Shown: one piece after another, positions 15,631 to 27,200 of the stretch | Layout: each line of letters begins with the position of its first letter | Position numbering within the stretch: the stretch's first letter is position 1 | NCBI GenBank assembly: GCA_913060565.1 | Contig: CAJXRU010000028.1 | Location: 1 to 39,149 of the forward strand | From: an uncultured Gammaproteobacteria bacterium | GTDB lineage: Bacteria; Pseudomonadota; Gammaproteobacteria; Enterobacterales; Psychrobiaceae | Length of the DNA stretch: 39,149 nt | Direction of reading: 5' to 3' | Made by a program: the position numbers and the translations under genes | The notes under the pieces: generated by a model | The model's input: the letters and a program-made list of their open reading frames with translations, nothing else | Database searches by the model: none | Told to the model about the DNA's origin: nothing

Positions 15631-16710
15631 TTGTTACTCAACCAACTTTCAATTTCTCAGCTGCGAAATCTAAAGGATGTGACTTTAGACTTTGGGCCAT
15701 TGAATGTGATTTATGGTGATAATGGCAGTGGTAAAACAAGTGTTCTTGAGGCGGTTCATTATTTAGCATTAGGTCGCTCCTTTCGAACACATTTAGCGAG
15801 TAGGGTAATTAATCATGATTGTGATAATTTTTTGTTATTTGGTCGAGCAAATAAACACGCATTAGGTGTACAACGATTTAAAAATGGTGATGTCACCATT
15901 AAGATAGATGGTGAGAAAGCGAAGAAACTTACCGAATTATTAGATATTCTTCCACTTCAATTGATTACTCCCGAAAGCTTTGAATTATTAACAGGTGGCC
16001 CTAAAGTTCGTCGTCAATTTGTTGATTGGGGCGTGTTCCATTTAGACGAAAACTTCATGGCTATTTGGAATAAATGCAAGCGGTTACTCAAGCAACGCAA
16101 CGCATTATTGAAACGAAAAGCACCTTATAAAGAAATCTCTTTTTGGGACATTGAATTGGTTGAATGCTCACTGGCGTTAAGTGAACTTAGAAACCAGTAT
16201 ATAAATTCGTTTAATCCCGTTTTGCAGGGTATAATAGAGCGTTTTTTGCCTGACACAGACGTTACAGTAAGTTATAGTCAGGGGTGGGATAAAAAAGCGG
16301 ATTTAGCTCAATTGTTAGAGCGAAATTATTCACGCGAACTAGCCTTAGGTTACACACTTTCAGGACCTCACAAAGCAGATTTAAAATTGCGTTGTGGCGC
16401 TATTCCTGCGAGTGATGCATTATCGCGTGGACAGCTAAAATTATTAGTTTGTGCATTACGAATTGCACAAGGAGTTCACTTAAAACAACAAGTGGACAAG
16501 CAGACAATTTATTTGGTTGATGATTTATCGTCGGAGCTCGATAGTCAAAAACGGCAACTGTTGATTGACCAGTTGGTTGATACACAGGCGCAGTTATTTT
16601 TATCGGTTATTGATGCGTCTCAAATAAAACAACAAACCAGTAAATATCAAACCAAGATGTTCCACGTGGAACACGGTGTGATAAAACAGGACAACTTAGA
16701 ACGAGAATAA
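15631..16710 (+). CDS. recF: RecF, DNA replication and repair protein
   Basis: A 359-residue SMC-like ATPase that helps load RecA at gaps with RecO and RecR. It begins at TTG 15631-15633 with AGGAA eight bases upstream. The Walker A segment is VIYGDNGSGKTSVLEAVHYL, the ABC signature is near LSRGQLKLL, and Walker B is IYLVDDLSSELD. The 132-bp gap to dnaN holds a hairpin. A parS-like palindrome lies in its last codons (16658-16673). It ends 3 bases before gyrB. Confidence 0.96.
   Translation: MLLNQLSISQLRNLKDVTLDFGPLNVIYGDNGSGKTSVLEAVHYLALGRSFRTHLASRVINHDCDNFLLFGRANKHALGVQRFKNGDVTIKIDGEKAKKLTELLDILPLQLITPESFELLTGGPKVRRQFVDWGVFHLDENFMAIWNKCKRLLKQRNALLKRKAPYKEISFWDIELVECSLALSELRNQYINSFNPVLQGIIERFLPDTDVTVSYSQGWDKKADLAQLLERNYSRELALGYTLSGPHKADLKLRCGAIPASDALSRGQLKLLVCALRIAQGVHLKQQVDKQTIYLVDDLSSELDSQKRQLLIDQLVDTQAQLFLSVIDASQIKQQTSKYQTKMFHVEHGVIKQDNLERE
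16658..16673. promoter_or_regulatory. parS: parS site (ParB-binding centromere), copy 1
   Basis: TGTTCCACGTGGAACA is a perfect 16-bp palindrome matching the parS consensus known from Pseudomonas and other bacteria. It lies in the 3' end of recF, in codons for MFHVEH, about 15 kb from oriC. An identical copy lies at 25487. Confidence 0.9.
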
Positions 16711-16713
16711 TAT

Positions 16714-24242: not shown

Positions 24243-24256
24243 CTAACGCTTAGTTG

Positions 24257-27200
24257 CTATTTTTCGAAGAAGAAAACTTCACGTTTTTTAGGATGATTAC
24301 CAATTTCATTCATGGTGTTTGCGTCATACAACCGACCATTGAGCATGGTGTATTGTACTTTACGAGTGTCGCGAATGTCATTCAGTGGGTCGCCATCAAT
24401 CACGATTAGATCTGCTAACTTACCTTTTTCGATAGAACCAATGGCGTGGTCTAGTCCTAGGTAATGAGCTGGATCTATAGTTGCTGTGCGCAGTGCTTCT
24501 AGTGGTGTCATTCCACCTTGAGCGAAGCTCCAAATTTCCCAATGAGCGCCTAGACCTTCACGTTGACCATGACCGCCAATGTTGGTTTTTACACCTAGAT
24601 CTCGAAGTTCCTTAGCTACTTTCGCATTGCTGATGTGATTGTAGTGGTGATCTGGTGCCTTAGTACGGCGCATTGAACGTGGCTTAAACGCTTGTGCAGG
24701 TACAAAGGTATTTAGCTTTTTATCTGTCCAAACGTCAGTTTTTTCATACCAGTAGTTTTCGCCCCAGATACCGCCATAGCCGACAACTAAAGTCGGTGTA
24801 TAGCCGACGTCAGTCTGGCTCCAAAACTGTTTGATATCAGCATAAACCTTCGCTGTGGGAATAGAGTGCTCAATACCAGTGTGGCCATCAGCAACCATTG
24901 ATAGGTTATGTTGCAATAATGATCCACCTTCAGGAACAACCATCATTTCTAATTCACGGCCAGCCTGAACAACTTGTTGACGTTGATTACGACGAGGTTG
25001 GTTATAGCTTTTGACACTAAAAGCACCAACTTTCTTAAGACGTTGTAAGTGGAATTTTGCATCTTCTAAACTATCGACGTGTGAAGTATAGCCAGCACCA
25101 TGTGCGCCGTACAAAATAGTACCGGTAGAATAAGTCCGTGGAGCGACAATATCACCAGCTTTTTGTAGTTCGCTCGCCGTGAAAATTTCAGTGGTATCGT
25201 TAGAAGGATCATGAATGGTTGTCACACCATAAGTTAACTCAGCGTAATTTGCCCAGTTTTGCTGCGGAATGATTTCATTAACACCTTGGCCACCATGGTG
25301 ATGAACATCGACCAATCCAGGCATTATTGTTTTACCTGCAAGGTTTATCGTTTTATCAATGTCATTTAACGGAGCTTCATCTGCATTTCCTAGCCATGAA
25401 ATCTTGTTGTCGGTAACGATAACAGTACCGTTTTCAATGACTTTATCACCGTTCATCGTGATAATTTTCGCGTTGGTTAATGCCAGTGTTCCACGTGGAA
25501 CATCTACTTTTTTGGTGAAACTAATATCTAAACCATTTTCTACTTTTTCGAACGTATCTTCTTTATCATCAGATAAATCAAATAGCGTAGCCACATTAGC
25601 ATGGTAAAGTTCAGGGCCTAATGACCAATAAATTGCCTTAGCATCTTTAGTCCAACTAATGTTTTCACCCGCTCTTTGTGAAATTTGTGTCACTGGCAAA
25701 TTAGTTGCTGATGGTGCGATAGACAATGTATTACCGGTTAATGAAAACGGAGTAATAAATACTTTGAAGCGCTCTGTGAATGCCAATCTATCGCCATCTG
25801 GACTAATTCTAAACTCAGTGGCAAGTTTGCTTTCATAGTGCTTTCGTTCTTGCTCACCGTCTAAACGAATACTGTTGAAGCTTTGTTTCTCACCATAGCC
25901 CATAAAGAATAGGCGATCGTTATCACTACCAAATTGCGGTGTTGTGCCGTGGCTAGTAACTAACTTGGGTGTCCCGCCTTTTGTTGCTACTTGATAGATA
26001 CCAGTGTTGAGCGACCATTTTTTTGGCAGTAAACCACCGGAACCAACTTTGCGAAATACAACTGTTTTACCGTTAGGAGAAAAAGTTGATTCTACGTATT
26101 TTCCAGGTTCTGTTGTAATAGTTTTACCTTTACCTGAGCGGCTTGATACTACGCGAACACTACCTTGCTTTTGATCGTCCCAAGTCGTGTAGACAATCTT
26201 TTTGCCGTCACGTGACCATTGTGGGAACAATTCAAAATTTGATTTGTCTCGAGTTAAACGTTTTGGTTTACCATTAGGTAGTTTTTTTACCCATAGTTTA
26301 CCTAATGCTTCGTATACTACTTTATTGCCATTTGGTGATACCTGAGCATTACGTAGCATTTTTACTTTGAACTCATCTTGTTCAATAGGTTGCTTGAAGC
26401 GTAATGCATTTTGGACTTTTTTGGTTGTTTCAACTGAGAAAGCAATCGTTGAAACATCTTGGTCGTCAACATTTAGTTTGTTAATTTTACCGCCTGCCCA
26501 AAATACAATAGACTCGCCATCTGGCGTCCAGTCAATTGTTGGGTAAACACCGTGAATTGCCCAAGTTTCTTGCATATCACGGTCTAGGTCATTGTATATC
26601 TGAGTTGACTCACCAGACGCTAAATCATAAATATATAATGATGACTTAAAGTCATCACGAGCTATATAAGCTAATTTCTTACCATCTGGGCTTGGCGTCG
26701 GTCTGATCGCTCCACCCATACCACTGATAATAGTTTTAATCTCACCTGACTCACGGTCAAGGCGTTTAATTTTGTAAATACCTTTGACTGAATCTTTACT
26801 GTAATGGAACGTCTTGCCAGGAGTAGCATCATGGCTAAAGTAAACGTATTTTCCATCAGGTGAAAATGCTGGTTCGCCTAAGTCTTTCTGGTCATTTGCG
26901 CGCGTTGTTAGTTTTACACCGCTACCGCCAGTTTTGTGATACATCCAAACTTCACCTGCGCCCAAAGAACGTGATGAGGTAAAGTGTTTTCGAGCAACTA
27001 GATAATCACCATCGGGACTCCATGCAGGGCTGTTTAACAAGCGAAATGTTTCTTTGGTAACGGCACGTGGGTTACTACCATCGCTGTTCATTATCCAGAT
27101 ATTATCGCCACCACCCTGATCTGAAGTAAACGCGATATGTTTTCCATCGGGGCTAAAAGTAGGTTGCATGTGCCAAGCAATTCCTTTGATGAGTGGAGTA

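Follow-up and report, generated by a model that had tools for sequence, protein, structure and literature searches.

Two identical predicted parS sites lying within recF and an amidohydrolase gene of an uncultured Psychrobiaceae bacterium

The locus described here raises the question of why one 16-bp palindrome, TGTTCCACGTGGAACA, should occur twice inside protein-coding genes, once in recF and once in a gene for an amidohydrolase. The window, i.e. the whole 39,149-nucleotide stretch that was analysed (contig CAJXRU010000028.1 of assembly GCA_913060565.1), comes from an uncultured gammaproteobacterium, and the original prediction took the palindrome for parS, the ParB-binding centromere. Sequence comparisons indicate, with a probability of roughly 0.96, that both copies are parS sites of a chromosomal ParABS system, where they would serve ParB loading and sliding, ParA-driven movement and SMC recruitment, and would constrain the coding sequence around them.

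The genes of the window are mnmG (cut), a flavodoxin gene, mnmE, yidC, rnpA, dnaA, dnaN, recF, gyrB, an HDOD gene, glyS, glyQ, tag, the amidohydrolase gene, fadA, fadB, pepQ, a yigZ-family gene, glmU, glmS, and ccoG. The flavodoxin gene sits at the usual place of mioC. Three DnaA-box-like 9-mers beside mnmG likely mark oriC; the whole window holds 9 such 9-mers, compared with 7.3 expected. If oriC adjoins mnmG, the palindromes lie about 14.9 and 23.7 kb from it, both on one side, in agreement with the 15-24 kb originally proposed. Close matches of the window's RecF include those of "Alteromonadales bacterium alter-6D02" and "DT-Psychrobiaceae-3".

Both copies were recovered at the predicted coordinates, with 0 mismatches each, and in the predicted reading frames (MFHVEHG in recF and DVPRGT in the amidohydrolase; Table 1). 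A scan of the window gave no further match to TGTTCCACGTGGAACA at up to 3 mismatches. That a double chance occurrence is improbable, as had been argued, was borne out: from base composition, the expected number of exact copies is 6.4e-6 for the window and 7.2e-4 for 4.35 Mb, and dinucleotide shuffles yielded a mean of 0.13 matches at up to 3 mismatches, with none of 100 shuffles reaching 2. The genome-wide search suggested in the original prediction found no third match at up to 1 mismatch in the draft genome (4,354,493 bases, 215 contigs), all copies at this tolerance being on the one 39-kb contig; the sites are thus few and near oriC, as oriC is placed here and as far as a draft assembly extends. 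A single 2-mismatch match occurs on another contig (C99:8466), in an open frame reading MLLVEQNA that matches neither RecF nor the amidohydrolase. It was taken as a chance match and not as a third parS, because the reversed control pattern likewise gives one match in the genome at up to 2 mismatches.

Table 1. Positions of the main features in the window.
Feature	Coordinates	Strand	Remarks
mnmG	49-1488	-	cut; continues beyond the window's left end
Candidate oriC	1744-1841	none	three DnaA-box-like 9-mers beside mnmG; placed by position
dnaA	12957-14351	+	TIGR00362; head of the dnaA-dnaN-recF-gyrB run
recF	15631-16710	+	TIGR00611, E 2.5e-102; hosts site 1
Predicted parS site 1	16658-16673	none	perfect palindrome; recF codons 343-348, ATG TTC CAC GTG GAA CAC
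PD40 beta-propeller and amidohydrolase gene	24257-27454	-	hosts site 2
Predicted parS site 2	25487-25502	none	perfect palindrome; amidohydrolase codons 651-656 (minus-strand gene), GAT GTT CCA CGT GGA ACA

The genome encodes the proteins that would be expected to act on such sites. One ParB match was found, above the family cut-off (E 1.5e-57), and its gene adjoins parA, together with rsmG and atpB, on contig C9 (G000:C9, L079). A check for parA and parB beyond mnmG had been suggested; the two genes do not follow it directly but have rsmG and atp genes as neighbors on a different contig. The mnmG gene was searched for in two genomes of the genus besides the window's own, and lies about 74 kb from parB in G006 (C5) and about 46 kb in G005 (C5); the distance is about 2 kb in G013. 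SMC was found in the genome (G000), and MukB was not found in it at E 1e-10.

The specificity residues of this ParB, when aligned to Caulobacter ParB, are R172, L178, T183, and G200. R172 and G200 occupy the parS-type positions (R173 and G201 in Caulobacter numbering), the motif GERRWRA is present, and the RXXG pattern that these specificity residues form is called parS-specific in the available part of PMC7383237. Residues G169, K170, S171, N177, and R203 match contact residues in the same alignment. H161 stands where Caulobacter has Q162, which the same portion of that paper counts among six contacts described as conserved; histidine is also present in the 9 further ParBs from the order that were compared. 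The parS type of these residues bears on whether the palindromes might be Noc-like nucleoid occlusion sites (NBS) rather than partition sites. Although the protein does score 217.9 bits against the Noc model, this is below the Noc cut-off of 315, the Noc-type residues Q173 and R201 are replaced by those of the parS type, and parA adjoins parB, which leaves a nucleoid occlusion role extremely unlikely.

The palindrome is also linked to ParB among relatives. The pattern TGTTYCACGTGRAACA was found exactly in 143 of 197 relatives: 143 of the 147 with a strong ParB (E up to 1e-40, a limit chosen once the list had been seen), versus 0 of the 50 others. The reversed control pattern was absent from all 197. 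Of the four strong-ParB exceptions, G010 has 7 matches and G082 has 1 match when up to 1 mismatch to the 16-mer is allowed, the completeness of G129 is 60%, and the best ParB of G084 is on a second contig. Palindromic operators are common, and the palindrome might instead be the site of a different regulator recognizing the CACGTG core, such as a local repressor. However, both copies are within genes, a single contig holds every copy with up to 1 mismatch, and the motif tracks ParB across the 197 genomes, so that the chance of a different regulator appears close to negligible. On a RecF tree of 68 rows, which is a quick tree with many long branches, there are 2 changes of state for ParB and 8 for the site, with only 2 independent pairs, which leaves the tree test without power. 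The association therefore has little phylogenetic replication, and its p-value does not count as independent evidence.

The first site lies near the end of recF, and the extent to which its sequence is dictated by the protein had to be weighed. Within the genus, the site is present as TGTTYCACGTGRAACA in 9 of 9 genomes, including G003; the exact 16-mer TGTTCCACGTGGAACA occurs in recF only in the window's genome and in G007. In relatives, parS is present in recF at either or both of two homologous positions, one close to residue 137 (DWGxFHVEH) and the other close to residue 343 (xMFHVEHG); the loci behind this pattern were mostly fetched for carrying a site. The inner place of the window's own recF reads DWGVFHLDE, with 5 mismatches. 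The RecFs of two more distant gammaproteobacteria (L055 and L056, 36% and 34% identical) have parS, or a 2-mismatch form of it, at the inner place.

In a comparison of 60 hand-picked genomes, 30 with a strong ParB and 30 with a weak ParB or none, the terminal recF site was exact in 18 of the former versus 0 of the latter; 12 of the ParB-bearing genomes thus lack it in exact form. At up to 1 mismatch, the counts were 24 of 30 and 3 of 30; the inner site had exact copies in 9 of the 30 genomes with a strong ParB and in none of the other 30. ParB-less genomes often retain a similar sequence at the end of RecF (for example, MFRVEQG or MFTVEKG), and part of this motif therefore belongs to the protein. 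The claim of conservation at the level of DNA as opposed to protein stands in so far as it is the exact FHVEH coding DNA, rather than the RecF end as such, that goes with ParB; as a statement about the whole RecF end it needs refining. A reading of the recF site as a protein motif alone was accordingly rejected for the exact DNA and retained in part for the RecF end.

Codon usage points in the same direction. Among 31 recF genes (those of the 30 hand-picked ParB-bearing genomes and the window, only the latter having been chosen for a site), the segments MFHVE and FHVEH had identical-codon fractions of 0.772 and 0.757, the two highest of 89 eligible windows, compared with 0.377 for the rest. 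They were also the top two of 116 windows in 65 recF genes, a set that adds 34 loci all fetched for a site (35 site-selected with the window). These results bear on the possibility that the recF site is merely a by-product of the conserved C-terminal peptide, with no function as DNA. The peptide does narrow the choice, since the codons TTC CAC GTG GAA have a chance of about 1.2e-2 once it is given; the related ends and the three near matches in ParB-less genomes would also fit such an origin, and a scan restricted to the genus (8 of 9 genomes) gave an unexceptional result, with 20 of 334 windows at or above the site. However, the site is the most codon-frozen place in both larger sets, 23 of 164 windows reach or exceed it in the ParB-minus set, exact sites number 18 versus 0, and the peptide cannot account for a second copy read in another frame. 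A pure by-product is thus very unlikely, and conservation of the DNA beyond the needs of the protein, as expected of parS, is apparent, although not for recF within the genus alone.

The second site immediately precedes residue 657, the starting point of several amidohydrolase-type matches. A second site is present in 8 of 9 genus genomes, 6 having it in the amidohydrolase gene (each exact) and 2 in intergenic DNA. In the latter, G001 and G005, parS is located between tag and fadA or just beyond glyQ, and no amidohydrolase match was found in either at E 1e-50. In the ninth genome, G007, contig ends interrupt the amidohydrolase gene, which stops at residue 655 and continues from 923. In G008 (C415:7289-10230), a TAA, possibly an assembly error, divides the reading of the gene into two pieces, yet its parS is exact.

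At E 1e-50, the amidohydrolase gene was detected in 55 of the 197 genomes, and 30 loci were fetched and read. In all 13 genomes of family f6 among these relatives, the homologous codons either match the consensus (8 of 13) or differ from it by one outer-base mismatch (5 of 13). The RecFs of two f6 genomes, G037 and G013, group with the genus on the RecF tree with an SH-aLRT of 97, and the two f6 genomes that were mapped (G013 and G108) have an additional intergenic parS between tag and the amidohydrolase gene. The 11 orthologs fetched from other families show 5 to 10 mismatches at this place, and none of them contains VPRGT, the nearest being VPRGS (L175). In 5 amidohydrolase genes of the genus, VPRGT and DVPRG were the top two of 874 eligible windows, with an identical-codon fraction of 1.0, compared with 0.479 for the rest. 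In 17 genes (5 of the genus and 12 of the 13 of f6), DVPRG (0.998) and VPRGT (0.938) were the top two of 843 windows, the rest having 0.441. Among the 11 other-family orthologs and the window, 230 of 677 windows were at or above the site-2 place. An amidohydrolase gene near the origin does not always contain the site: that of G027, at a distance of about 10 kb from recF, has none. The sequence TGTTCCACATGGAACA occurs at G126:C8:11391 (L032) and G017:C1:4576626; the L032 copy, which is about 128 kb away from the G126 recF sites, falls in an open frame that reads VPHGT.

By analogy with its family, the ParB of this genome would bind both 16-mers, load there, and slide outward with CTP. The resulting origin-proximal complex would be moved by ParA, which would achieve segregation, and it may recruit SMC, with SMC loading expected from the behavior of the family. 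Since both sites are part of coding sequence, selection acting on parS would also hold synonymous positions of the host genes, and appears to have set the amidohydrolase peptide VPRGT. The chances are slightly better than even that the centromere has shaped protein: parS may have arisen once inside the amidohydrolase gene, in an ancestor of the genus and f6, fixing VPRGT before the catalytic domain, while parS at the two recF places may fix FHVEH in relatives that have ParB, with drift of the peptide in those that no longer have it. The direction of change is here a reading rather than a result, because the tree cannot tell gain from loss.

The interest of the sites is that a segregation signal has been maintained within coding sequence across many families of one order. 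The recF site also offers a natural experiment, in which the exact site is common with ParB and none was seen without ParB among the genomes compared. For annotation, they carry the warning that the FHVEH end of RecF and VPRGT of the amidohydrolase probably owe at least as much to constraint on the DNA as to the function of the protein.

Comparison with known systems supports the parS interpretation, in line with the ParB beside ParA and its parS-type residues. The 16-mer is identical to parS2 and parS3 of P. aeruginosa, whose ParB binds this same sequence; parS2 and parS3 have the highest ParB affinity according to the accessible part of PMC4368675. In the sections available of PMC3909081 and PMC5521831, P. 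aeruginosa parS1 and parS2 lie within recF, and PMC5521831 places parS3 and parS4 in intergenic DNA near tag (PA0010) to PA0015, past glyS and glyQ. The window has a similar order, recF-gyrB-glyS-glyQ-tag-amidohydrolase, as far as these literature excerpts describe the P. aeruginosa cluster. Unlike P. aeruginosa parS1-parS4, as given there, the window has one recF site instead of two, and its distal site is inside the amidohydrolase gene instead of being intergenic. In Caulobacter, two hot spots are described for inserted parS, of which one spans recF and gyrB and the other is near the native parS cluster (PMC5815017, in part); in contrast to the window's sites, these are experimental insertions. 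ParA, ParB, origin-near parS, and SMC are shared with chromosomal ParABS systems in general, as outlined in the available part of a review (PMC7333895), from which the distance of parB from mnmG (about 46 kb in G005 and 74 kb in G006) departs. No report of parS in an amidohydrolase gene was met in the available portions of the literature, and one may exist elsewhere; with parS in recF already known, the amidohydrolase location is the new detail. Because P. aeruginosa has both the identical sequence and parS in recF, as these sources describe it, the kind of site is already known: the two sites are real and ordinary in kind, and their overlap with protein genes is mildly unusual.
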